Of a DNA stretch of 22,853 bases, positions 2,952 to 21,514 are shown piece after piece. The stretch's first letter is position 1, and every line of letters starts with the position of its first letter. The notes under the pieces are model-generated. The model was not told the origin of the DNA and did no database searches. It saw only the letters and a program-made list of their open reading frames with translations. Source of the stretch: a virus. A program made the position numbers and the translations under genes. The stretch lies in the IMG/VR virus record IMGVR_UViG_3300009180_000232, positions 1 to 22,853 of that record; one strand, given 5' to 3'.

Positions 2952-3108
2952 TGGCACAGCCATTGAGCATGTTCAAAGTCAAAACAGAGAAATTGAATAC
3001 CTAAGCTATTCCGCAGATAAAACACGCAGCAGGTATAGTTCTGACCTATGGCAGGCTGAAATGTATTGCAAGCAATTTATGGCGCCAGTCGTGCGCGATG
3101 TAGCCTAG
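2926..3108 (+). CDS. Hypothetical small protein, 60 aa
   Basis: The frame is open from 2827, but the methionines at 2899 and 2926 give shorter overlaps with the preceding gene; 2926 (MTKITKNADGTAIEHVQ) starts where the sequence turns polar and protein-like. It stops with TAG at 3106-3108, inside the 3' end of thyX on the other strand (32-bp convergent overlap). The peptide is mixed-charge and helical-looking, with no recognised domain. It is the last plus-strand gene in the window. Its reality is less certain than that of its neighbours. Confidence 0.4.
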   Translation: MTKITKNADGTAIEHVQSQNREIEYLSYSADKTRSRYSSDLWQAEMYCKQFMAPVVRDVA

Positions 3109-3802
3109 TTTTTTCATACCAATCGGCAATTTCTGGTGCCCAATTCTGGAGGTGAGGCCACATCAATTCACAAAGCTGCCTGATCTCCAGCTGGGCATCT
3201 AATTTTGCTCGTAAATCCAGGAAATGTAAAAACGCCCGCAAGTTGAAACTCACTACAAAGTGCTGGCGATAATCAAAGGGAAGCATTCCTCTAGCGTGTT
3301 CCTCCGCAGCGCCATCACGAATCATCACTTCATACCTTTTGGCCGACTCCAAGCAATACAGCAAATCGTCTGACCTTTTCTGTTCAGTATATGTATATTT
3401 TCCACCCTTCCTGTCAAGATACTCACCAACCGGCCTAAGGTAAAACACCGTTTCAATGTCAATTTCCTTTTTCGCTGCTTTTAGGATTCGTTCTCCCGTG
3501 TAGCGCATCGACTGCACATCAAAGCTCACGCCCACCCGGTGGGTGCGGGCCTGTTGCATCACCGAATGGGGGAACCAGCCGACGTTTAGCGTGATCTGGG
3601 GGTGCTCCAAGGGTCCGTAGTGGCCCCGTTCGCCAGACAGCAGTCGTTTAACACAAACCGCGCCGGCCCGGTTTTCATCCGGCCAGTTGGCCCGATCGTC
3701 CACCACAAAATCTTCGCTGTAATCCTGGTGCATTGCAGCATAAATACAGCGCTGTGGATTTGGCGTCGCCGCAATACGTTCAACACGAAACAGTTGATCC
3801 AT
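3077..3802 (-). CDS. thyX: Flavin-dependent thymidylate synthase ThyX
   Basis: ThyX methylates dUMP to dTMP with methylene-tetrahydrofolate, FAD and NADPH, and acts as a homotetramer in the cytoplasm. The signature region is at residues 86-101 (RTHRVGVSFDVQSMRY), a variant of RHRX7S with one extra residue between HR and S. The second ligand region follows at about 168-210 (EHARGMLP, then NLRAFLHFLDLR and AQLEIR). The length of 241 residues is normal. I chose ATG 3802, two bases after the dcd stop; TTG at 3808 would add two residues and overlap dcd by 4 bases. With Dcd upstream it forms a two-step route: Dcd supplies dUTP, which becomes dUMP. Phages often carry thyX when the host pool limits DNA synthesis. 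Confidence 0.95.
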   Translation of the reverse strand: MDQLFRVERIAATPNPQRCIYAAMHQDYSEDFVVDDRANWPDENRAGAVCVKRLLSGERGHYGPLEHPQITLNVGWFPHSVMQQARTHRVGVSFDVQSMRYTGERILKAAKKEIDIETVFYLRPVGEYLDRKGGKYTYTEQKRSDDLLYCLESAKRYEVMIRDGAAEEHARGMLPFDYRQHFVVSFNLRAFLHFLDLRAKLDAQLEIRQLCELMWPHLQNWAPEIADWYEKTRLHRARLAP

Positions 3803-3804
3803 GA

Positions 3805-4326
3805 TCAAGCGACCTCCCAGGACTGATTAACGGTTCGATGGTTGTTGTAGTGACCAATTTCACTGTATTTTAGTACAGGTGTTCCGCAAAGCATGTGAAA
3901 AACCATCTGACCGATTTTTAGGCCAGGGTAGATCGCAACTGCGTGATGTTGGCGGATATTTTTCAGCTCAAGGGTGAGCTTACTACCGCTCCACAGTGGA
4001 TCGCAAAATCCGGCTAGAAGGTGTTGAAGCCCTTCTCTTGCCCTGGAGGATTTCAAAACAAATTGACCGGCAATGTCTGCAGGCATGTTAAAAATTGGCT
4101 CAGCGTCGGCTAACACAAATTGACCAGGCTTAAGCATGTATGGTGACTCTTTTGAATACATGACAAATGGTTCAATTTGCATGTGTGGATGCTCTTTTGA
4201 TTCAGTCATTAGCCCCGTGCCAAGCCTGAGATCATAAGAAGCTGGGTTAAGCAATTCTTTGTCAAATGGATCAATCATTTTGTACTGTTCGCACAAATGC
4301 TGAATCTCAAAATCTGGAAGAATCAT
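3805..4326 (-). CDS. dcd: dCTP deaminase (dUTPase superfamily)
   Basis: The 173-residue protein has the hallmarks of the trimeric Dcd/Dut fold: NPASYDLRLG at 27-36, GQFVLADAEPIFNMPADIAG at 68-87, KSSRAREGL at 92-100, DPLWSG at 109-114 and LELKN at 119-123. By alignment with E. coli Dcd, S93, R97, A105 and E120 fit the catalytic Ser, Arg, Ala and Glu. The glutamate distinguishes deaminases from plain dUTPases, so I favour dCTP to dUTP deamination; a bifunctional dCTP deaminase/dUTPase cannot be excluded. It starts at ATG 4326, 24 bases after the 56-residue gene, and leads directly into thyX. Confidence 0.9.
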   Translation of the reverse strand: MILPDFEIQHLCEQYKMIDPFDKELLNPASYDLRLGTGLMTESKEHPHMQIEPFVMYSKESPYMLKPGQFVLADAEPIFNMPADIAGQFVLKSSRAREGLQHLLAGFCDPLWSGSKLTLELKNIRQHHAVAIYPGLKIGQMVFHMLCGTPVLKYSEIGHYNNHRTVNQSWEVA

Positions 4327-4350: not shown

Positions 4351-4521
4351 TTAAGACTGCTTGGGATTTTTTGGCGTAACAAATTGTGACAGCCATTCTT
4401 TTGCGTGATCCTCTGAATATGTCATTATCGATTCACCGCACCAGGATGCCATATAAACAAAACTGCCACCTGAAGTTGTAAATCTCCACAATCCAGGTTG
4501 AATTTTTTTTGATTCAATCAC
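4351..4521 (-). CDS. Small hypothetical protein, 56 aa, coupled to the endolysin
   Basis: A GTG at 4521-4519 shares one base with the endolysin stop (TAGTG), and the frame runs to TAA at 4351. The product starts MIESKKIQPGLWRF and contains SFVYMASWCGESIMTY and a helix EDHAKEWLSQF, with a polar Pro/Lys tail. No membrane span or known motif is visible. The one-base junction and the fact that it fills most of the gap between endolysin and dcd support a real gene. A small lysis accessory or an orphan are equally possible. Confidence 0.55.
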   Translation of the reverse strand: MIESKKIQPGLWRFTTSGGSFVYMASWCGESIMTYSEDHAKEWLSQFVTPKNPKQS

Positions 4522-5804
4522 TAGCTAAATGTCCAACCCCACGCCGATGCGGGACCATCGCTTTTTGGTGTAATTCTTGGGTTAAAATTTCTAAACGAAT
4601 AGATCATATTTTTTCCAGAATCGCCACCCGTTTTAATCCATTCTCCGGCAATAAGGTCGATTTCACCATAGGGGTCCATCACTTTCCAGGCGTCTTGTGT
4701 TACACCGTAAATTGCAACATAATGCCCGCCACCGCTGGGGGAGTTTACATGGCCCTTGTGTAACGCACCAACAGCAACAGGACGCCCGCCCTTAATTTCA
4801 GCGAGAATTTCACCTGTTGTCATATTTTTTCTAAATGTTGCAGTTACACTAAGCTCTGCCAATGCTTTTTTATGTGATTCTTGGTCTGTCGTATCACCAT
4901 ATTTATCAACAATTTTTTGGTAATCGAGATCATCATTGATTCCCTTAATTTTTAGAAATTTTAAGCACATTGCAATTGACGAAGTTTGGCACCTTCGCCA
5001 GCCATCCGGGCCGTTATCTAGCTGAGAGAAATAAGGAAAATTTGGCAGTTCAACCGAGCCAGCCTCTCCAACTTTTACGCCTGGGGATTTCTGGCCACGC
5101 AATGGAACTGCTTTTTGTGCCCGAACAAAATGCGCCTCACGATCAGCAAGTCCATTTGCAGGGTCACGACCATTAACGCGTCTTGATATTTCACGGCATG
5201 ATGCACCAGAATCGCACACTGCATTCATTCCGTTGCGCCACCACCAGAAACCAGCCGAGGTAAGGGGGTAAACTTGTGATACATATTTGCAGCCACCCAT
5301 AATTTTGGGATCTTTTTTATACGCGGCAAACGCCGCATAATTTGCCCTGCCAGTAAGCTGAATTGCCCCAGCACCTTTAAAGTGTGGCCCATCGCCTGGC
5401 TGGGTATTTCCAAGATCCTTGCGACCTTCGTAGGCCGAACCATCTGCAAGTTCTTCAACCCATTTTAGTCCGGCGGATTCGTGGCCAACTTGGGCCAGAA
5501 AATGCTGAATGCGAATTGCCGAAATAATCGAAAATTCAACTAGACAGCTGTTTAGGTCGTCGAGTTGCTGTTTTGTAATCTGCCTCAAAAAGACCGCTTC
5601 AACCTGGGCCATCGTGATCAATGGCTCAAGTGCTGGCGGGGCAGCGGTTGCCGAGCCAGCTTTCCACAAATCGCGCAGATCCCCGCCATCCCGGAGGGCG
5701 GGGGGGTCTAATTCGGCAACACGATCGAGCACCGCTTGCAGGAATGCCCGGTGGTGGGGATTTCCTTTGTCAAAAAATGTGACGTAATCCCCAGTGGTAG
5801 GCAT
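4521..5804 (-). CDS. Endolysin: GH19 glycosidase fused to a C39-like cysteine peptidase
   Basis: Residues 1-50 are a small N-terminal module. Residues about 62-235 form a GH19 chitinase/lysozyme-type domain: HFLAQVGHESAGLKWVEE (101-118) carries the candidate acids E109 and E117/E118, and GAGAIQLTGRANYAAF (144-159) is the family's substrate-side signature. A linker at about 236-254 leads to a papain-like C39_2 domain at about 255-405, with Q261 (oxyanion), C272 in WRRCQTSSIAMCL, H361 in GGGHYVAIYGV and D377 in KVMDPYGE. The protein would cut both sugar backbone and peptide parts of the host wall at lysis. It has no signal peptide, so it needs a holin. ATG 5804 shares one base with the stop of the 48-residue gene upstream. 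Confidence 0.9.
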   Translation of the reverse strand: MPTTGDYVTFFDKGNPHHRAFLQAVLDRVAELDPPALRDGGDLRDLWKAGSATAAPPALEPLITMAQVEAVFLRQITKQQLDDLNSCLVEFSIISAIRIQHFLAQVGHESAGLKWVEELADGSAYEGRKDLGNTQPGDGPHFKGAGAIQLTGRANYAAFAAYKKDPKIMGGCKYVSQVYPLTSAGFWWWRNGMNAVCDSGASCREISRRVNGRDPANGLADREAHFVRAQKAVPLRGQKSPGVKVGEAGSVELPNFPYFSQLDNGPDGWRRCQTSSIAMCLKFLKIKGINDDLDYQKIVDKYGDTTDQESHKKALAELSVTATFRKNMTTGEILAEIKGGRPVAVGALHKGHVNSPSGGGHYVAIYGVTQDAWKVMDPYGEIDLIAGEWIKTGGDSGKNMIYSFRNFNPRITPKSDGPASAWGWTFS

Positions 5805-5977: not shown

Positions 5978-6283
5978 TCACGGCTGACGTCGCAGTGCCT
6001 CAAGGGCACTAACGCGTTGTTCAACAGATGAAAATTTATCGAAAAACTTGTCACGATACTTTTTGCTTTCTTCCCGATCTTCTTTCATTTCTTCCCTGAT
6101 TTTTGTAAGTTCAGCACCTATATTACTTATTCCAGAGCTTAGAACGGCAATGACTTCACGGGTCTCACTGTCCTCTCGCCGCCTTAATTCTCGCTGATCC
6201 GCCTTGCGGTTTGACGACGACGACCAGGCTCCGATCACGCCGCCAAGCGCCGCAGAGACTAGATTTGCAGCCCAGTCGCCCAC
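5978..6283 (-). CDS. Membrane-anchored coiled-coil protein, possible holin or spanin-like
   Basis: A GTG start at 6283 gives a 101-residue protein. Residues about 4-20 (WAANLVSAALGGVIGAW) form one hydrophobic segment. The rest is a highly charged, heptad-like helix from about residue 27 to 98 (KADQRELRRREDSETREVIA, then KIREEMKEDREESKKYRD and EQRVSALEALRR). This build, one N-terminal membrane helix plus a long coiled coil, is found in XhlA-like holin-associated proteins and in Rz-type spanins. It sits 27 bases upstream of the 48-residue gene in the lysis cassette. The role is inferred from architecture and place. Confidence 0.7.
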   Translation of the reverse strand: MGDWAANLVSAALGGVIGAWSSSSNRKADQRELRRREDSETREVIAVLSSGISNIGAELTKIREEMKEDREESKKYRDKFFDKFSSVEQRVSALEALRRQP

Positions 6284-6301: not shown

Positions 6302-6478
6302 TCACTCTAGTTCAATGGCGCCGCAGGGTGGAGGCAATGGCAGCGGATCAGGAAAACCGCTAAGAATTGCAGTTGCTCTTTTAAAATACCAGTTGTCTGT
6401 TTTGCCAGATTTTGCCATTGCAGTCTGAATCTTGCGCCAATTTTCAAGTTCGTTTCTGTTCACTGGTAACATTTTCAT
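6302..6478 (-). CDS. Small hypothetical protein, 58 aa
   Basis: ATG at 6478-6476 (second ATG at 6472) opens a frame to TGA at 6304-6302, 18 bases before the GTG of the coiled-coil gene. The N-terminal 45 residues look like two short helices (NRNELENWRKIQTAMAK, then NWYFKRATAILSGF), followed by a proline run (PDPLPLPPP) and an acidic end. It would be the first gene after the terminator at 6496-6527. I do not recognise it. Protein-like composition and tight spacing support it; its small size keeps confidence moderate. Confidence 0.5.
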   Translation of the reverse strand: MKMLPVNRNELENWRKIQTAMAKSGKTDNWYFKRATAILSGFPDPLPLPPPCGAIELE

Positions 6479-6495
6479 TGCAGTCTAATTTTAGC

Positions 6496-6527
6496 AAAAA
6501 AAATTCCGGCTGACACAGCAGCCGGAA
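6496..6527 (-). terminator. Intrinsic terminator below the tail operon
   Basis: Read on the minus strand, a perfect 9-bp stem (TTCCGGCTG / CAGCCGGAA) closes a 6-base loop and is followed at once by eight T. This is a textbook Rho-independent terminator. It lies after the last tail gene (stop at 6641) and just before the lysis cassette, so it divides the two sets; the lysis genes then need readthrough, antitermination or their own promoter. Confidence 0.9.
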
Positions 6528-6564
6528 CCCAATCCCACGATTTGAGCTTGGTAAAACAATTGAA

Positions 6565-6615
6565 GGCAGGGCGGGACTTGAACCACGCTGCGCCATGGCG
6601 CAGGCCCTACCTGCC
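6565..6615 (-). ncRNA. 51-nt tRNA-like element (T-arm, acceptor-like ends, palindromic hairpin)
   Basis: On the minus strand the ends GGCAGG and CCTGCC pair as an acceptor-like stem. Inside lies a perfect 16-base palindrome (CTGCGCCATGGCGCAG) that can form a 6-bp hairpin. Next comes GGTTCAAGTCC, an exact match to the tRNA T-loop consensus GGTTCRANYCC, flanked by GCG and CGC that pair if one T is bulged. It is about 20 nt too short for a normal tRNA and lacks a D-arm and a 7-base anticodon loop. Readings: a shrunken tRNA, a tRNA-mimic or RNA-processing signal, or an attP core copied from a host tRNA 3' end. No integrase gene is in the window. Confidence 0.4.
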
Positions 6616-6618
6616 AAA

Positions 6619-6627
6619 ATAATACCA
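6619..6627 (-). promoter_or_regulatory. Extended -10-like box upstream of the tRNA-like element
   Basis: The minus strand reads TGGTATTAT, a TGn extension plus a hexamer with five of six matches to TATAAT. No good -35 is visible, which extended -10 promoters tolerate. Transcription would begin within a few bases of the GGCAGG that opens the tRNA-like fold and run about 120 nt to the terminator. AT-rich spacers produce such boxes by chance, so confidence is low. Confidence 0.3.
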
Positions 6628-6640
6628 CAAAACCAAACCG

Positions 6641-7936
6641 CTAATCGGGTATAAAGGCAAGCGTTGTAACGCCCGAAGTTGCGTCTACTGCCCCAGGACT
6701 ACTAACAATAACTTTTGCAACAATATAATCGCCATAACCGTTGTTGCCCAAAAGATATTGCGCAAACGGGTAAACGCCTGTAAGTGTCATTGTTGCTGTT
6801 TGTGTACCGGAAATAACCGTATTCAGTGTTCCAGTAACATTATTAGTCGTGTATGTCCAGTATGTATCGTACTTGCTGTTAGTAACTTTTGACGTGGCTG
6901 CCAGGGTTGAGGCTGAGGTTTTTCCGGTTATCGCAACTGTTGACAAAGTACCATTTACTGCGTTGAGCCATGTTTCACCATTGTCAAGGCTTAATTGCCA
7001 TTGGTATGACAGCGCTGACCCGGTGGAGCTATGTGCAATTACCTCAAATACTATTTTATCTCCAATTTCAGTTGCTGGAACTGGATTGTATGGAGGTTCG
7101 TACCCAGTCCATGTTCCAATGTTTGCGCCTTCGGTATATGCCCATGAAAGTTCCCCAGGAAAGAATGAATCTTGTATCCATAACGGGGCCTGTTCATCGA
7201 ACCAAGTCACCCAATCGGTCCATGCGGCATCCTCCGCCGCCTCCCATGCCGCATAAATACCGGGATCGCCACTCGGATCGGCTGGATTGCTGTAAAGGTC
7301 ATACCATGTATCGTAAGTTGAATCTATTCCATAAATATCTAGGTTAAACGCAGTGATATTACTATAAAACAAAAATGGATTAGACAGTGGAATATATCCG
7401 TTCATGTAAGTGGATTGATAATACCCTGGATACGAAGATCCAAGACTGCCATCAGTTGTTCTAATCCTTTCAACCGGCTGCCTTGTAAATGTGATAACAT
7501 TTGGATCAAGACCTGGACAGTTTTTAGGCTCCCAGAGTTCGGCAATTAAATCAACTTTTACGCTGTGATAATCACCGGATCTTGAGTTTATGGACGGTTC
7601 CTGCTTGAATTTCCATTCGAGTGACCCGGCATATCTAATTCTATTTAAGAGCGAAGTATTGTCAATGCCACCAATTATATTTACTGGTAGATCAATAGGA
7701 AAAAACCCAGATAAACTATCGTAATAACATTGAAGTATTTGAGATGTTTGTGCGCTACTTAGGTATTCAAAATTTAATGATAATTGAGCATCGGTTCCAA
7801 CAGTGCTCCACGATTTAAGAAAATACGCCGATTCGTCAACTGACGATTCGGTATATGGATACACCGAAGCGGTATAATCACGAACTTTTTCTGGGCAAAT
7901 TTGTGGAAAAGCGACACCCATGTCACACCTGAACAA
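6641..7936 (-). CDS. Distal tail protein with N-terminal tail-fold domain and Ig-like C-terminus, 431 aa
   Basis: The N-terminal 140 residues resemble the C-terminal two-thirds of the neighbouring 208-residue protein: QLSLNFEYLSSAQTSQIL here versus KMSLEFRELTDTETESII there, then a W-x-F element and a GDYHSVKVDLIAELW strand matching GRSTVRVELKPF. The two are therefore probably paralogous minor tail proteins. The middle (about 145-285) is Tyr-, Trp- and Pro-rich. The C-terminal 145 residues look like an Ig-type beta domain (SYQWQLSLDNGETWLNA), common on virion surfaces, where it may bind cell-surface sugars. The start overlaps the upstream gene by 14 bases. It is the last gene of the tail operon; the terminator follows 114 bases later. 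Confidence 0.7.
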   Translation of the reverse strand: MFRCDMGVAFPQICPEKVRDYTASVYPYTESSVDESAYFLKSWSTVGTDAQLSLNFEYLSSAQTSQILQCYYDSLSGFFPIDLPVNIIGGIDNTSLLNRIRYAGSLEWKFKQEPSINSRSGDYHSVKVDLIAELWEPKNCPGLDPNVITFTRQPVERIRTTDGSLGSSYPGYYQSTYMNGYIPLSNPFLFYSNITAFNLDIYGIDSTYDTWYDLYSNPADPSGDPGIYAAWEAAEDAAWTDWVTWFDEQAPLWIQDSFFPGELSWAYTEGANIGTWTGYEPPYNPVPATEIGDKIVFEVIAHSSTGSALSYQWQLSLDNGETWLNAVNGTLSTVAITGKTSASTLAATSKVTNSKYDTYWTYTTNNVTGTLNTVISGTQTATMTLTGVYPFAQYLLGNNGYGDYIVAKVIVSSPGAVDATSGVTTLAFIPD

Positions 7937-12807: not shown

Positions 12808-13298
12808 CACTGCATCGAGATTTGGCCGGTCGAAGGGACACTACCAACCAAATCTGTCGTCAAAACTCTTTTTGGCACCCTTCCCCGAATTGCGTTTGTC
12901 GGACTTGATAAATTGATTACTACCTTTCCAAGATCCGGTTGCCCGCCACCGTTACAGGCCCATAACTCTGTTGAGTAAACAGCACACTCTGTAAAGTTTC
13001 CGCCAATTTCAATCGAGATTTCAACGGTTGTAACTTCTACAAGCCAATTTTGCAATATGGCCTCGGTTGCCAGTGAGACGCTTAAGTCATTGGCTGGAAA
13101 TAAAAGCGTTCCCTCAACACCATCACCGTTTCGAGTTGATGATGAACCGTTAAATCCGAATGGTGCGTATTGATAATTGATTTCATAAAGCGTTCTCGTT
13201 TCTCCAGGGAAAAATGGCTGATACATTCTTGATTGAATGTAGTCCCCATTTTTGTCAAGAAATTTAATGTAATAAGTTGTTGCAACAGAAGTTGACAT
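12807..13298 (-). CDS. Tail-tip minor protein, 163 aa
   Basis: It starts at ATG 13298, sharing one base with the tape measure stop (TAATG), and ends with TGA 12809-12807 inside the next start. The protein is beta-rich (YYIKFLDKNGDYIQSRMYQP, then NWLVEVTTVEISIEIGGNF) with a single pair of cysteines near residues 107 and 116 and no membrane segment. In lambda-type order this slot, between tape measure and the K/J genes, holds tip-initiator proteins such as M or L. I assign it by position and fold style; no specific motif identifies it. Confidence 0.6.
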   Translation of the reverse strand: MSTSVATTYYIKFLDKNGDYIQSRMYQPFFPGETRTLYEINYQYAPFGFNGSSSTRNGDGVEGTLLFPANDLSVSLATEAILQNWLVEVTTVEISIEIGGNFTECAVYSTELWACNGGGQPDLGKVVINLSSPTNAIRGRVPKRVLTTDLVGSVPSTGQISMQ

Positions 13299-16200
13299 TA
13301 GCCCATCCCCAGTGATTTTCTGGTTTTAGTGGAACTTCGCATTCCACGGTAAGTCATCATCATACCCTGTTCCCCGGCTTGCTTGACAATGTGTGGAATC
13401 TGGTCAACCCTGACGTATTCAACATTGTTGATTACTTCGGATTGAACGTTTGCCGTAATTGTGTGATTTCCGCCCACGGGTGCTCTTTCCGCCTGACTTC
13501 CGTAATACGCTGCCGAAACAATTCGATTATTGGGAATAATTGTTCCCCTGGAATCCGGTACAAATATCTCTGGGCCATTCTCCCCGACAATAGACGGACG
13601 ATTCATTGAAATTGTTCCGCCATTTGCAAATGCTGGAAGAGTGGCAACATTTACAAGCGGCGCCATTCCAAGGGTTTTCGTGAAATCCGCCGCAACACTT
13701 GACCCTACTACGGGAAGCTGTAGACCACCACCAGCGCCGCCACCGAGAGCACCAAGAATTGAGGTGATGCCCTTGATAGCAAGTAATTTCATTTGACTTG
13801 CAATAATCTCAGCTGCCATATCAAGAAATGTTTGACTAACACGCTTGAATAGTTCGCTAAGTGCTTGCTGTGTCGACTGAGTGCCGCTGATAACAGAGCT
13901 AAACGCTTGCCCAAACGAATCTCCGATGGAGGTGGCAATTCTTTCCACCTTTTGCATGTCTTCATATTTTTTCTTTAGCATGTCAACCCGTCTCGCCTGC
14001 TCTAAAATTGCATCCGCATCTGCACGGCTAATTTTTACGCCAAGTGCAGTAATTTTATTTTCTGCTTTTTTAACCTCATTGTATTTTTCCAGCGAGTCGG
14101 TAAGCTCAGTAATTTTGGATTGATAGTCCGAAAGGTTTTTGTATTGCTCTGACAGCATTGATGGCCCAACCGCCTCGGAAACCCTAAGCAAGTTTTGATT
14201 TTTTCTTGCGTCAATCCCTGGAATTAATTCCGAAAGTTTGCCGACGTATTGATCTCGGCTTGCCTTGTTGGCTGGATCCGTGAGCTTAAGCCCCTTCCAT
14301 GCTTCAATTTCTAGGCTTATCCGTGTTTTAAGTATGTCAAGTTTTTTATTTTCTAGCGACACCTGCTTTTCTGTCTCAATAATTATTTCCGCCTGTGCGC
14401 CGCTTACGCCTTCGGTGATAAGTCTCAAGTATTGCTTTTCGTAGTCAGTTTTTTCTCGCGTAGACTTAACAGAACTGTCTATTTCGCTTGTGTATTCCTT
14501 TTGCCTGTCGATCAATTCGCCAATTACGTCGTTTTGCTCTTGCAATGAACGAAGCTGCATATTGGTAGCGTCAATCGGCGTAAGGGATTGGTTAAGGGCT
14601 CCGTATTTTTTAATTTGACCCTGAACCGATGACTGCGTTGATGCTGTAATTTTGTCAAAAGAAGGCGAAGGAATGGGCTTTTGCGGCTGATACCGAGGCG
14701 TCGGATAGTAAGCGGCAGGAGTAAATCCACCTTGCGGCATTTGGCCGTTAAATGGAATGTTTTTCATAACGCTAGGATCTAAATGTAAGTACCTATTTCC
14801 GTATCCCGCAAGCGATGGCGCGAAGTATCCACCCTTGCCCCTGGTATCAAGCTGTGCCTGTCCTATCGGAAATGGGAGCTTTGTTCCAACAGGTATTGCA
14901 ATGTCAACGGGATTATCCACAGCCCTTCTAGAGTGAATACGTTGCTCCTGCAAGAGTTTTTCTTCCAACTTCACCTTGTCTGTCATGTTTTTAACATCGA
15001 CACCTGTATTGCCAAGCTGAATATAGGCAACGTTCATTTTGCGCAGTGCTTCAATAATTAATACTGCTTCTTTAATTACATTTGCAGCAGACGGCCCCCT
15101 GAGGTCTAAATGCGCCTGACCATTTCCTGTATTCCCACTAAACGCCGTATAACCGCCGACGCCAACAGCGCCAGAAGTTCCCCCATATGCAGAAATTCTT
15201 TCGTTGTAAAACTTTTGCAGTTCACTAAAACTTTTGCTGGGCTGACCGTGATAACTTTTTCCGGTTGCGAGTGTTGGGAATGATGCCCAAGTGGGAGCCA
15301 TTTTATTGATTGTATCGGGAGTAAGCGGAGCATTTGAATTGATGCCCAGTCTTTTGACCTGCTCCAGAAATGCGGCGTCCTGATTTTTGGGCGAAAAATC
15401 AGTTAATCCAAGCGCCCTTGCAATTGGATCCCAAGTTGTGGAAAGAAACTGATAACGCCCTGCAGCGTCTGACCCATGCCTCCCGCTTTTAATTAATTGC
15501 CGTGGATGAGTTGTGTAATTGTTAAATGTTCCACCACCAAACATTGTTTGGTATCCTTTCGGGCTATAGGTGCCCTCAGCAAAAGCCACAGTGTCCATAA
15601 GCGCCCTTTGATGTGCGGTCGCTGAGCCCATTGCAGCACCCTGTGCTGTCGCCCCAGCGCCGCCGCCAGACATCGCCGCGCCAATGGTGTTGCCAGCCTC
15701 GATTAGGCGATTTGCGGCGGCGGTGGCAGCCTCCATAAGGAGTTGACCGAACCGTTCCCCAGCCTGTTCAATAATTTTTCCTGTCGTGCGTGCATATTCC
15801 TCTTGAATTTTTGCCCCGCCCTTGTCATATGCCTCTTTAATTTTTCCAATTGATTCTTGAACTTTTACCCTAAAGTCTTCAAATTTACGCTGACGCTCAA
15901 TTCGCTTATCAAGTGCCTTGTCTTCTGCCGTAATTTTAAAATTCGTGTATTTATCAAAAATTTCATTTAACTGGCGTTCGACTTCAACTGGTGCAGTTGA
16001 TTGCCCTCTGGATCGCAACTGGATTTCACGCTCTGTTAAGACCGAATCGCGTTGCTGCCTAGCAATTGCAAGCCTGGTATCACGAATTTCGCGTTCAGTT
16101 GAACGCCGCTCATCGTCAATTTCTCGTTCATATTGCTTAACTTCTTTTGCCGTATTTTTACGAAGTTCAACCATGTCTTCGATGGTTTTTTTCTCTAGCT

Positions 16201-19200
16201 CTTTCCGATCCTGAGCTGATTTTTTATATGCTTCGTCTAGGTCTTTATTGGTTTTAACTTTAAGCTCAAAAATATCATTTTGTAGCTTTTGCTGAGCTTC
16301 AAGTTCTTTTTCCGCCGCTTTCATCGCAGCCTTGTCAGGGCTGTTTGCTGGGCCACTAAAGTCAGTCAATCCGCCGCCTTTGAAATCAATTTTTGCCGAT
16401 TTCATTGCGTTGGCCCAAGCAAGGCGATTTTTTAGCAAATCTGTTCTGTATCGAGACATAAAGCCACCGCGATCTAGCTCAGCCTGGGCGCTTTTTCCGG
16501 TTTCAATTGCAACTTTTCTATTGGCTTCAAACGTTTCTTTACCTGAATTGGCATAAACGCCAGCAGGACCAATTTTTAAGCGTTTCTTTAACTGCTCCGA
16601 TTCTGATTGTTCTTTTCCGGCAAGCATTACATTTGATACCGCAAAATCAATAGCGGCAAAAGCAACAAACGCTTTGAGCATTGGCATTAGCTTGCCAAGT
16701 GTTCCGGCCAAAATCCCGGCATTTGCGCTGGTGATGATCATTGCCCTACCAAAACCGCTCATTCCGGCAGTCGCTGGAACAAGTGTAAGCCTTGCGATTG
16801 CAAGACTTACACCAACAATTGCTTTTGAAAGAATTGGGATTGCGAAATTTAAACTACCAACTACAGCTGCAAACTTAAGCAGGCTTCCAATTGCGCCAGC
16901 ATTGTCAACAATAAACTTAATACCAGTTCCAATACCTTTCAGCAGTACAATTAAAGATGGTCCCGACTCCTTAATTATATTAATAAGTTTTTCTTGGATT
17001 TGAGCGCCAATTGGGATAAGTTCCGCTCCAAGCAAACGCTTAAACTCTGTTACTTGAACCTGTAACCTTGCGCCTGCGTCCTCTTGGCTGCCGGCAATTT
17101 TCATTGCCGTTGCTTCAAATTCGGGGCCAAGTGATTTAACAAAACTCATTAAATCATTTAGGCCAATTTTTCCTTGTGACAGACCTTTCATCATTTCAGG
17201 TCCGCTCATGCCTATTGATTTTGCAAACATCGTAAAAGTACCTGGCAAGCGCTCGCCAAGTTGATTTATTTCCTCCATCGACACTTTGCCCTTGCTGAAG
17301 ATTTGGCTCATTGCCAATAGTGATGGTGCAATTTCTTCGGCACCGCCACCCGTAGCCTTAATAGCCGCAGTTACGTTTCTAAATACCAGTTGAGCATCGT
17401 AAACATTTCCACCAGCACCTTTGATAGCGGCTGATAATTTTGTCATCGCTTGAATTGAATCAAGCGAAGGCACGTTGAAATCTCTAGTCACTCCACTGGC
17501 TGCGGATAATGCCGCCTGATAGTCGGATTGACTTCCGGCAACATTCTTCAACGCAATTTCTAGTTTTGTAATTTGCGCGGCGTAATCCGTAGCTTCGGCT
17601 GTTGCGGTTCGCATCATCTGCAAATACGTTCCAGCCGAACTTCCTATGAATGCACCTGTCGCAAAACTAGCGGCACCGCCAACCGCACCGCCAATTCCAG
17701 CACCAATCAAACCGCCAGCCGCACCCTCGGGACCACCGAAAATACCAGCCGCAGCAATTGCGCCAAGACCTTGACCGTAGTAACCAGCCTTTCCGGCAAG
17801 TGATGATGTATTGCGACGATCAAGTTCTTTGCTTGCATTATTGATTGTCTTTCGCTGAGCCCTGTCGATTTTTTGATATAGTGGATCGAGCGGGCTTAGT
17901 GCATCGCGTAATTTTGTCGCTTCCTCGCGCTGTCTAATCAGCTCATTGGTTGTCAGTTTTGACGCATTACGCAGCGACACCAATCGTGCATCAAGTTGTT
18001 GCACCGCCTGGACCTGGGGCATAGCCTCCATGGCAAGCGGTGGCACGGCTGGGCTCATGGCGCCAGCGCCGGCAATTTTTCTGCCCAGTACCGCTTCTTG
18101 GCGAATCGACCAATCAGCCAGTTTACCCAGTCCATATTCCCTTGCACCGCCAGACATGGCCAAACCTGTCCCCGGTGCCGTGGTTTGCCCAGCCATTGGT
18201 AGGGCGGGTCGAGACGTGAAAACACGGGCCAAGGGTTCAAGCATTTGCGCAAATGCTTGTTTTTGAGCGTTTGCATATGATTGACGATCTGCGACACCTC
18301 CGGCCCCGCCGAGCAATGCCGGCCCTTCGGATCTCAGGGCAACCTGTGGCATGGGACGCTGCCGCCCTGCTGGGCCGATCACCGCTTCGCCAAGACGGGT
18401 CGGCGCCGCAGGCTGTTGAGCCCTAAATTTATCTCCTTCGTACTTCGCCCTTGCTTCTTTTTTCTTTATCAGTCTTTCCGCCCTTTCCTCCAGTCTTACT
18501 TGCCGCTCCATTTCTTCACTTGTGCCAGTTACAGCACGTTTTAACTCTTTTTCGGCTTGCACCAGTTCCTGTTTTAAGCGTAATTCTTTGTCGGTTCTTT
18601 CGTTTCTTAGTCTGTAGTATTCCTCTTCAACCGCTCGCCCAGTGGGAGACATTTTGAAGCCCCCCGCCTTTGCTTTTTTGTCCATGTCAATAATGTTGCG
18701 TCGCATTGCATCCAGCGACGAATCTCCAATCTCAAGATTGTTGAGTTGTGATTTTAGGTCCGCAACCCTGGCCTGTCTTTCGCTAATTGTGTCGATTGGC
18801 CGCCTGCCCTTGCCTGTGGTACTGCCTGCCATCATTCCTGAAGTATCAACACCCCACTGTTCCTGCAATGGTTTTGAAATAAATTGTTTGTTTTCAGCAA
18901 TTGCAGCTGCGGTTCTACCTGCAGCGCTCATTTCCCTGTTGAATTTATTCTCGGATTCAACAATTTCAGCCAAAGATTGAGCATATTCTTTACTTGTTAC
19001 TTTCATTCCATTCATTGCTATTCTGCGTTCCCGCATTTGCTCAGCAAATGTATCTGGAACCCTTGAATCCATTGCGTCACGCAACATTGCCTGCCGCCTT
19101 GTTTGTTCAGCCGTGGCGGCAGACAACTGCCCCAGCTCGCCACGGAGGCGGGCCAGTGCATCGGTCATCAAATTCTGAATAGAGCTGCCAACCCTGGTTT

Positions 19201-19612
19201 GGGCTGACAGTGACTCAATTGATGAAATATGGCCGCGTAATGACTGCTCGGACTGCCTAGATGCGGAGGCGTTTCTAATTAACGCTTTTGCTTGTGCTTC
19301 AACTTCCGCAGTCGCACCCGCCGCGACTTGCTTGAGATTTTTTATGTCAGCGACAAGTAGGGTATGTGTCTCGCTACAGTGTTGCGCGTTAGCCGCCAGC
19401 CCCTCAAGGGCTGAGATCATTCCCTTTATAGATTGATCGGTCTGACCGATCGCAGCACCTGCTTCAAGAATTTGTGTGCGAACAGAATCGACCGCATGAT
19501 CAGTCAGCGACGCCGCCTTGATCAGGTCACGGAAAGACCCCTTGAGACGATTAAATGCCTCATCGCCAATCAAACGAGCAATAATGTCAATTCGTTTGAT
19601 TTGCGGTGCCAT
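13298..19612 (-). CDS. Tape measure protein with GH104 transglycosylase domain, 2104 aa
   Basis: It sets tail length and is ejected ahead of the DNA. Residues 1-400 are mostly helical. Residues about 675-865 form the classic tape-measure domain (VSMEEINQLGERLPGTFTMF). Hydrophobic segments fill about 885-1000. A long charged coiled coil spans about 1097-1290. Residues about 1340-1475 match lambda endolysin R (GH104): TVAFAEGTYS with candidate catalytic E1346, then FGGGTFNNYTTHPRQL, AAGRYQFLSTTWD and LGLTDFSPKNQDA. Residues about 1560-1615 may be a degraded M23-like domain. The C-terminus has the usual GGTISMNRPSIVGENGPEIF ending. ATG 19612 directly follows the GT stop. It is over twice as long as lambda's (853 aa). 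Confidence 0.95.
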   Translation of the reverse strand: MAPQIKRIDIIARLIGDEAFNRLKGSFRDLIKAASLTDHAVDSVRTQILEAGAAIGQTDQSIKGMISALEGLAANAQHCSETHTLLVADIKNLKQVAAGATAEVEAQAKALIRNASASRQSEQSLRGHISSIESLSAQTRVGSSIQNLMTDALARLRGELGQLSAATAEQTRRQAMLRDAMDSRVPDTFAEQMRERRIAMNGMKVTSKEYAQSLAEIVESENKFNREMSAAGRTAAAIAENKQFISKPLQEQWGVDTSGMMAGSTTGKGRRPIDTISERQARVADLKSQLNNLEIGDSSLDAMRRNIIDMDKKAKAGGFKMSPTGRAVEEEYYRLRNERTDKELRLKQELVQAEKELKRAVTGTSEEMERQVRLEERAERLIKKKEARAKYEGDKFRAQQPAAPTRLGEAVIGPAGRQRPMPQVALRSEGPALLGGAGGVADRQSYANAQKQAFAQMLEPLARVFTSRPALPMAGQTTAPGTGLAMSGGAREYGLGKLADWSIRQEAVLGRKIAGAGAMSPAVPPLAMEAMPQVQAVQQLDARLVSLRNASKLTTNELIRQREEATKLRDALSPLDPLYQKIDRAQRKTINNASKELDRRNTSSLAGKAGYYGQGLGAIAAAGIFGGPEGAAGGLIGAGIGGAVGGAASFATGAFIGSSAGTYLQMMRTATAEATDYAAQITKLEIALKNVAGSQSDYQAALSAASGVTRDFNVPSLDSIQAMTKLSAAIKGAGGNVYDAQLVFRNVTAAIKATGGGAEEIAPSLLAMSQIFSKGKVSMEEINQLGERLPGTFTMFAKSIGMSGPEMMKGLSQGKIGLNDLMSFVKSLGPEFEATAMKIAGSQEDAGARLQVQVTEFKRLLGAELIPIGAQIQEKLINIIKESGPSLIVLLKGIGTGIKFIVDNAGAIGSLLKFAAVVGSLNFAIPILSKAIVGVSLAIARLTLVPATAGMSGFGRAMIITSANAGILAGTLGKLMPMLKAFVAFAAIDFAVSNVMLAGKEQSESEQLKKRLKIGPAGVYANSGKETFEANRKVAIETGKSAQAELDRGGFMSRYRTDLLKNRLAWANAMKSAKIDFKGGGLTDFSGPANSPDKAAMKAAEKELEAQQKLQNDIFELKVKTNKDLDEAYKKSAQDRKELEKKTIEDMVELRKNTAKEVKQYEREIDDERRSTEREIRDTRLAIARQQRDSVLTEREIQLRSRGQSTAPVEVERQLNEIFDKYTNFKITAEDKALDKRIERQRKFEDFRVKVQESIGKIKEAYDKGGAKIQEEYARTTGKIIEQAGERFGQLLMEAATAAANRLIEAGNTIGAAMSGGGAGATAQGAAMGSATAHQRALMDTVAFAEGTYSPKGYQTMFGGGTFNNYTTHPRQLIKSGRHGSDAAGRYQFLSTTWDPIARALGLTDFSPKNQDAAFLEQVKRLGINSNAPLTPDTINKMAPTWASFPTLATGKSYHGQPSKSFSELQKFYNERISAYGGTSGAVGVGGYTAFSGNTGNGQAHLDLRGPSAANVIKEAVLIIEALRKMNVAYIQLGNTGVDVKNMTDKVKLEEKLLQEQRIHSRRAVDNPVDIAIPVGTKLPFPIGQAQLDTRGKGGYFAPSLAGYGNRYLHLDPSVMKNIPFNGQMPQGGFTPAAYYPTPRYQPQKPIPSPSFDKITASTQSSVQGQIKKYGALNQSLTPIDATNMQLRSLQEQNDVIGELIDRQKEYTSEIDSSVKSTREKTDYEKQYLRLITEGVSGAQAEIIIETEKQVSLENKKLDILKTRISLEIEAWKGLKLTDPANKASRDQYVGKLSELIPGIDARKNQNLLRVSEAVGPSMLSEQYKNLSDYQSKITELTDSLEKYNEVKKAENKITALGVKISRADADAILEQARRVDMLKKKYEDMQKVERIATSIGDSFGQAFSSVISGTQSTQQALSELFKRVSQTFLDMAAEIIASQMKLLAIKGITSILGALGGGAGGGLQLPVVGSSVAADFTKTLGMAPLVNVATLPAFANGGTISMNRPSIVGENGPEIFVPDSRGTIIPNNRIVSAAYYGSQAERAPVGGNHTITANVQSEVINNVEYVRVDQIPHIVKQAGEQGMMMTYRGMRSSTKTRKSLGMG

Positions 19613-20347: not shown

Positions 20348-21514
20348 TCAGGAGAAAATCAGAATAGCCTCATCATTACCAGCGGTTGTCGGTACTGCCG
20401 TGTACGGGATGGAGAGGTGTGCAATTCCATTTGCGTCCTGATAAGTCGGATCGGCAATGTCAATAGTTGACGAAATCATTGTGACAATGTTCGCCACAGT
20501 GTTTCCGTGCATAAACCTGAAATCGCCAAAAGCGCCGTCTGCGATTGCAGCAGTGAAATAATCTTTCTGTGCAATCGTCGGTGCTTCGATGACGACAGTG
20601 CCATTTGCGCGACGATCCGTAATTAGGATTTGCTTGGCACAATTGACAAGCTCCCGATAGATCAGGGTGTTGCCAATGTCGAAGCTGAGCGACTGAAGAC
20701 AGCTGGTAAACGAAAGAAGGGAAAAGGCGTTTGTGTTTCCAGACTTGAAAACAAGCGGCTTCGACTGCAGGGTATAAGTGGCGGTGGGAAGTGCGGTATC
20801 GGTCGGGGGATTGTAAATGCCGGTCATCGTAAAATTGATGACAGGAATTTGACCGACTTCGCCGCTGAGGCTAAATGTGCCCCTGCAACCTGTCGCACGA
20901 TGCAAAACACCGTCCATATTGTAGTAAATTGTAATCGCCTCAAAACCAGTGCTAACAGGCTTGTAGGCAGCGTTTGCGCCAATTGAATAAACACTGGTTG
21001 CGCCAGCAGTTACGTCAACGCCACTAACGCTTGCAAATGTTGCAACTTTTGTGGAGCCAACGTAACCAGTAATCATTGCAACGGTGCCAGAGCCAGCGCC
21101 GCCAGTGATTGAAAGGACCTGACCTTTGTAAAAATCATTGACTGCACTGGCGCCAGCGGCGAGCGTGATGGTGTTCAACCCGCCAGCGGTTGCCGTGCCG
21201 GAAACAGCAGCAGCCGTGATGGTCTCAGACATGCCACAGGCCCGGAGCACGGAGCCGAACCGGGGGGCTGTGCCGGCGGTGCCACTACCGGCCAACTCGA
21301 CCTGGAAGGTGCATTCGACCCGAGTATTGGCCAGGAGCTGTTCAGAGGCTCCCAGGTAGGGCCTTACCAGATCGCGGCTGACCGTCTCACTCTGCAGCGG
21401 GGTGATGTTCAGATCCCGAACCAACAGAGCGTCGCTTCCCGCTGGGCTTGAATCCGTCCCGTAGGTTGTCTCCAATTTCACCTGGATCAGGCGTTTGCGC
21501 ATTAACAGCGGCAT
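20348..21514 (-). CDS. Major tail (tail tube) protein, 388 aa
   Basis: It forms the hexameric rings of the tail tube. The N-terminus (RKRLIQVKLETTYGTDSSPA, then LLVRDLNITPLQSETVSRDL) and the later blocks AYKPVSTGFEAITIYYNMDG, CRGTFSLSGEVGQIPVINF and QSLSFDIGN fit siphovirus tube proteins of this size class. Residues about 97-180 (AVNDFYKGQVLSITGGAGSG, then TKVATFASVSGVDVTAGATS) look like an inserted Gly/Ala/Thr-rich beta domain on the tube surface. The start has a strong ribosome site (AGGGGA, 5 bases before ATG), rare in this window, which suits a highly made protein. Position just before G/GT supports the call. Confidence 0.85.
   Translation of the reverse strand: MPLLMRKRLIQVKLETTYGTDSSPAGSDALLVRDLNITPLQSETVSRDLVRPYLGASEQLLANTRVECTFQVELAGSGTAGTAPRFGSVLRACGMSETITAAAVSGTATAGGLNTITLAAGASAVNDFYKGQVLSITGGAGSGTVAMITGYVGSTKVATFASVSGVDVTAGATSVYSIGANAAYKPVSTGFEAITIYYNMDGVLHRATGCRGTFSLSGEVGQIPVINFTMTGIYNPPTDTALPTATYTLQSKPLVFKSGNTNAFSLLSFTSCLQSLSFDIGNTLIYRELVNCAKQILITDRRANGTVVIEAPTIAQKDYFTAAIADGAFGDFRFMHGNTVANIVTMISSTIDIADPTYQDANGIAHLSIPYTAVPTTAGNDEAILIFS

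Follow-up and report, generated by a model that had tools for sequence, protein, structure and literature searches.

A tRNA-like fold at the tail–lysis boundary of an uncultured phage, possibly part of a structured transcript 3' end

The stretch of DNA analysed in this study (hereafter 'the window') is a viral record of 22,853 nucleotides in which a non-coding element on the minus strand separates the last tail gene from the lysis genes. The upstream tail gene (6641–7936, minus strand) is an open reading frame matching PHROG 15525 (minor tail protein, E = 1.8e-6), and its TAG stop codon at 6643–6641 adjoins the element. Downstream on the same strand are a 101-amino-acid gene of the lysis region (5978–6283), an open reading frame with weak matches to PHROGs of unknown function, and the endolysin gene (4521–5804; PHROGs 10051 and 181), after which come thymidylate synthase and dCTP deaminase genes at 3077–4326, again on this strand. 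The strand that carries the element has no open reading frame of at least 60 amino acids across it in the window. The virus is probably a phage of a cyanobacterial host, because a 388-amino-acid protein encoded at 20348–21514 matches tail tube proteins, with 54% identity to its counterpart in Synechococcus phage S-CBS1, and the J-protein gives weaker matches to Synechococcus phages.

A first-pass annotation of this DNA had proposed a free-standing small RNA with a tRNA-like head at this locus, and inspection of the sequence recovers on the minus strand each of the parts that it named. An extended -10-like box TGGTATTAT (TGG TATTAT; 6627–6619) has its TG at 6627–6626 and TATTAT at 6624–6619, with no -35 element. 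It precedes a 51-nucleotide element (6615–6565) with complementary ends, GGCAGG...CCTGCC. Within this element, a 16-base palindrome CTGCGCCATGGCGCAG (CTGCGC-CATG-GCGCAG; 6588–6603) forms a hairpin at the place of the D- and anticodon arms, and an exact T-loop is found in GG-TTCAAGT-CC (6584–6574, with TTCAAGT at 6582–6576). The T-arm (6572–6587; CG-U-GG TTCAAGT CCCG), as delimited by the sequence and by the Rfam mascRNA alignment, contains an inserted U that makes its stem imperfect (GCG-U-GG/CC-CGC). The acceptor-like ends were only partly as described: GGCAGG and CCTGCC are present, but the mascRNA alignment yields a rival pairing, here called register A, between GGTAGGG (6605–6611) and CCCTGCC (6565–6571), and this register is backed by the relative discussed below. 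The 3' strand is then followed by TTCA, not by CCA. An operator function for the palindrome was considered and dropped, as it has no second copy at up to three mismatches. It is the second longest palindrome in the window; the longest, a perfect 22-base palindrome CAAGCATTTGCGCAAATGCTTG at 18238–18259, lies within the long tail gene at 13298–19612, which is probably the tape measure gene.

A strong intrinsic terminator (6496–6530, minus strand) is formed by GGGTTCCGGCTGCTGTGTCAGCCGGAA followed by TTTTTTTT. Its stem of 10–12 base pairs, 6-nucleotide loop and eight T residues bear out the original description, and the terminator scanner counts 12 pairs. The -10-like box ahead of the element, from which a start near 6612 would be expected, was not flagged by the promoter scanner. 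A second extended -10-like box (TG-C-TAAAAT; 6488–6496, minus strand), accompanied by a -35-like GTGTCA at 6516–6511, was matched by the scanner, as a match to the consensus, in both the window and the relative. Its position just after the terminator makes it a possible promoter for the lysis genes. Just beyond the terminator, at 6455–6490, about 33 bases of the window are absent from the relatives; AGACTGCAATG is present in two copies close by, pointing to slippage or a minor deletion.

Searches for known RNAs agree with the earlier judgement that this is not a normal tRNA. ARAGORN reports no tRNA or tmRNA in the window or its tail relatives, and a covariance search with RF00005 gives no match up to E = 10 in the window and relatives. 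The element spans 51 nucleotides and has neither a D-arm nor a 7-nucleotide anticodon loop; a single hairpin with a 4-nucleotide loop stands between acceptor and T-arm. The T-loop does conform to the tRNA consensus (TTCRANY, closed by G-C on a T-stem), with the inserted U in that stem. When the acceptor is placed in the tRNA register, six of seven pairs form in the window, and the relative carries an A-C mismatch and C8. No Rfam family is matched at gathering thresholds, in line with the annotator's remark that no named phage RNA is known to have this build, and none appeared among the papers listed in a search of the open-licence literature. The sole tRNA-like family matched below threshold is mascRNA/menRNA (RF01684; 17.4 bits versus a gathering threshold of 42.5), and this match is absent in the relative. 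Weak matches to anti-hemB, the L20 leader and other families were rejected, as they rest mainly on the terminator.

Homologues were sought with the endolysin, the 101-amino-acid gene, the tail genes, the J-protein and patterns of the element, and by BLAST against phages and plasmids. Homologues of the locus were found in two IMG/VR contigs only, which do not differ from one another there (sequence L003), such that the whole comparison is between two distinct sequences, the window and L003. A covariance model of the element (R1) run over 76 sources, including J-protein relatives, returned no further homologue; on loci with an inserted-U T-arm its scores were weak (14.7–19.5 bits), and several of these loci are plain tRNAs. 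L003 retains the T-loop, the hairpin, the -10-like box and the terminator. The palindrome hairpin and the -10-like box are identical, the hairpin and T-arm together show one change in 40 sites, and the terminator shows one in 35, located in its loop. The structured shape is real and common to one sister lineage.

Between the stop codon and the terminator, the window and L003 differ by 11 changes, all of them transitions. All seven pairs of register A are kept in L003, one through a compensatory change and one by exchange between U-G and C-G. An outer stem, P1, can be drawn on the minus strand between TTGGCA (6612–6617) and TACCAA (6553–6548; TGCTAA in L003), and it carries a compensatory G-C to A-U change at positions 6615 and 6550. 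In the combined fold, A+P1, one pair is mismatched in the window but formed in L003. The predicted energies are similar (-25.1 kcal/mol in the window and -25.9 kcal/mol in L003), and A+P1 is close to the minimum free energy fold of L003 itself. The canonical tRNA acceptor register (G2-C71...G7-C66, U8), by comparison, goes from -22.2 kcal/mol in the window to -15.5 kcal/mol in L003, which has lost U8 and pair 6-67. A further outer helix, P0, is predicted by RNAalifold from the two sequences, with GCGGTTTGGTT (6631–6641, minus strand) pairing with AGCTCAAATCGT. P0 starts immediately past the tail stop codon, ahead of the proposed start near 6612, and P1 competes with part of its continuation. 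Both L003 changes inside P0 convert G-U to A-U and are weak evidence for the helix.

Statistical tests of these changes give mixed results. Fold A was derived from the Rfam alignment ahead of any comparison with the relative, whereas P1 was recognized post hoc, after the changes had been seen. Two compensatory pairs in the 82-nucleotide core have a probability of about 0.015 under random transitions with refolding of the mutants. The count is not significant over 110 nucleotides, where another fold, with P0 at the stop codon, dominates. Covarying stems, which the first-pass annotation would have counted as support, are seen to a modest degree in fold A+P1 but give no signal in the longer fold. 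An alignment-energy test over 110 nucleotides yields P = 0.27 or 0.007, according to which of the two sequences is taken as the start; for the core, P is 0.35. Divergence of the element (7.6%) falls within the range for fourfold sites of the flanking tail genes (5.7–9.5%) and below the mean of the compared genes (12.5%, P = 0.04). Because the tests are mixed and the divergence is near that of neighbouring fourfold sites, we regard selection on structure as suggestive only. The changes favour the shifted register and an outer helix by the stop codon, so a structured 3' UTR or terminator leader is at least as favoured as a free-standing RNA.

We consider the best reading, to which we assign a probability of roughly 40%, to be that a non-coding and probably tRNA-derived fold belongs to a structured 3' terminus of the tail mRNA. 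On the coding strand the element runs from stop codon to terminator, which counts for this reading, and the predicted helix P0, with its origin ahead of the start proposed near 6612, would fit a structure within a 3' UTR. RNA polymerase would read the tail gene, transcribe the fold and stop at the terminator, and the lysis genes would restart from a promoter of their own, probably the second extended -10 box (6496–6488). The fold may protect the 3' end of the tail mRNA. Alternatively, RNase P, RNase Z or both might clip it to release a stable RNA of roughly 50 nucleotides. What the data establish is the sequence, how improbable it is, its occurrence in a sister lineage and a modest covariation; the tRNA ancestry, the use of the terminator and any protection or processing are inferred.

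The probable origin of the head is suggested by its T-arm. In a scan of viral contigs the inserted-U T-arm GCGTGGTTCRARYCCCGC was found at 57 places; among the 20 viral genes called by ARAGORN at such matches, 16 are tRNA-Met (CAU), and three of four matches in bacterial genomes are likewise in tRNA-Met. The head is therefore probably tRNA-derived, as this T-arm occurs mostly in phage tRNA-Met genes. Moreover, TGGCAGG-TA-GGGC fits tRNA positions 1–13, with U8 and A9; a phage tRNA (L106) has TAGGGC at the corresponding place, and the loop of the palindrome hairpin contains CAT. These features suggest descent from a CAU tRNA after loss of the D-arm and anticodon loop. However, the hairpin might just as well derive from a type II variable arm, and a tRNA-Asn in other viral contigs has the 20 nucleotides GGTTCAAGTCCCGCCCTGCC in common with the element without mismatch, so descent from a CAU tRNA is tentative. 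Across IMG/VR loci L082–L136, the inserted-U T-arm recurs in phage tRNA genes (for example, L091:2016–2091 and L106:4066–4141). Several tRNA-like stretches with the same T-arm are not called by ARAGORN, namely L119:1661–1770, L130:1037–1145 and L133:6647–6755, which share the acceptor GGTGTGA...TCACACC and have extra sequence near the D-loop, and others in L095, L096, L113, L116 and L126.

This ancestry is also what would be seen if a captured tRNA, perhaps initiator tRNA-Met or another CAU tRNA, had decayed and were now drifting without function, with the terminator as the only part that matters. We consider such a relic nearly as likely as a structured 3' end of the tail mRNA. The near-neutral divergence, the absence of CCA, and the loss of U8 and pair 6-67 in L003 all point in this direction, in addition to the distribution of the T-arm and the fit to tRNA positions 1–13. 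Simple decay accounts poorly for the compensatory pairs in fold A+P1, the almost unchanged hairpin and T-arm, and the exact placement of the element against the terminator, and the possible type II origin of the hairpin weakens the link to a CAU tRNA. As a relic, the element would add a minor case to the record of tRNA decay in phages.

The original proposal was that transcription from the first -10-like box, starting near 6612 and ending at the terminator, yields a free-standing RNA of about 110–120 nucleotides whose tRNA-like 5' head is presented to tRNA enzymes. Were transcription to begin at A6612, a single base would precede the acceptor-like stem; the box and the terminator are unchanged or almost unchanged in L003; and a 123-nucleotide RNA from this region folds with z = -3.3, to which the terminator contributes much. 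Nevertheless, we consider this proposal possible but less likely: the box has no -35 element and escaped the promoter scanner, P0 and P1 draw on sequence upstream of 6612, and no antisense target of at least 14 bases occurs in the window or in locus L143 (the longest match outside the site is 13 nucleotides).

A phage attachment site that contains a host tRNA gene's 3' end is very improbable, even though the 20-nucleotide tRNA 3' end GGTTCAAGTCCCGCCCTGCC matches exactly within tRNA-Asn of two other viral contigs. Neither a tyrosine nor a serine integrase domain (PF00589, PF00239) is present in the three records (the window and two relatives, one of 37.9 kb), which are possibly fragments; a tail–lysis boundary would be an unusual place for attP, and the 3' end of the element differs in L003. 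Least probable of all is a chance joining of palindrome and T-loop-like string ahead of an ordinary terminator. A window of this size should contain about three T-loop-like strings, and palindromes of 16 bp are unremarkable, but a T-arm directly joined to a 7-bp acceptor with four or more G-C pairs is present once in the window and arose in only one of 400 dinucleotide shuffles.

If an RNA is indeed produced and trimmed at the end of the tail mRNA, the element would be a tRNA-shaped processing signal that sets an mRNA 3' end and frees a small RNA at the tail–lysis boundary. It would also offer a test of the minimal tRNA needed in vivo by bacterial RNase P, RNase Z and CCA-adding enzymes. A bolder version, which we hold to be quite doubtful, is that a DNA phage carves a stripped tRNA mimic (acceptor, one hairpin, T-arm) out of the 3' terminus of its tail mRNA, with RNase P and RNase Z doing the trimming and CCA added as in mascRNA, to give a small stable RNA that would occupy host tRNA enzymes or separate tail from lysis expression.

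Several known RNAs share portions of this architecture. The T-loop, inserted-U T-arm, acceptor-like stem and, in the window, the U8-A9-GGGC start are those of a phage initiator-type tRNA-Met, from which the element differs in its length, its lack of D-arm and 7-nucleotide anticodon loop, and its lack of CCA. The tRNA-like domain of tmRNA likewise combines an acceptor and a T-arm without an anticodon arm, but the element has no tag reading frame and receives no tmRNA call from ARAGORN. M3 RNA and the C4 antisense RNA are small phage RNAs that, although not tRNAs, are cleaved by RNase P (PMC11143913); the likeness is one of kind, and the element has no Rfam match to the C4 family. These phage RNAs are a precedent for the trimming proposed here, as is the acceptance of tRNA minihelices by CCA-adding enzymes (PMC5733544).

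A close comparison is with mascRNA/menRNA, which RNase P cuts at the 5' end and RNase Z at the 3' end, and which receives CCA. mascRNA depends on a small D stem-loop that contains two guanines (PMC11693755). No such stem-loop, whose GG would dock on the T-loop, exists in the favoured fold of the phage element: register A leaves one linking base, and a free GGG is available only in the register that is not kept in L003. The two also differ in that one is found in vertebrates and the other in a phage, where an intrinsic terminator follows. What they have in common is a 7-bp acceptor-like stem, a T-arm with a TTCAAG loop, a compact hairpin, the lack of a usable anticodon, and a position at the 3' end of a longer transcript. 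A phage RNA that is both transcribed from this locus and trimmed would represent a bacterial-virus counterpart of mascRNA.
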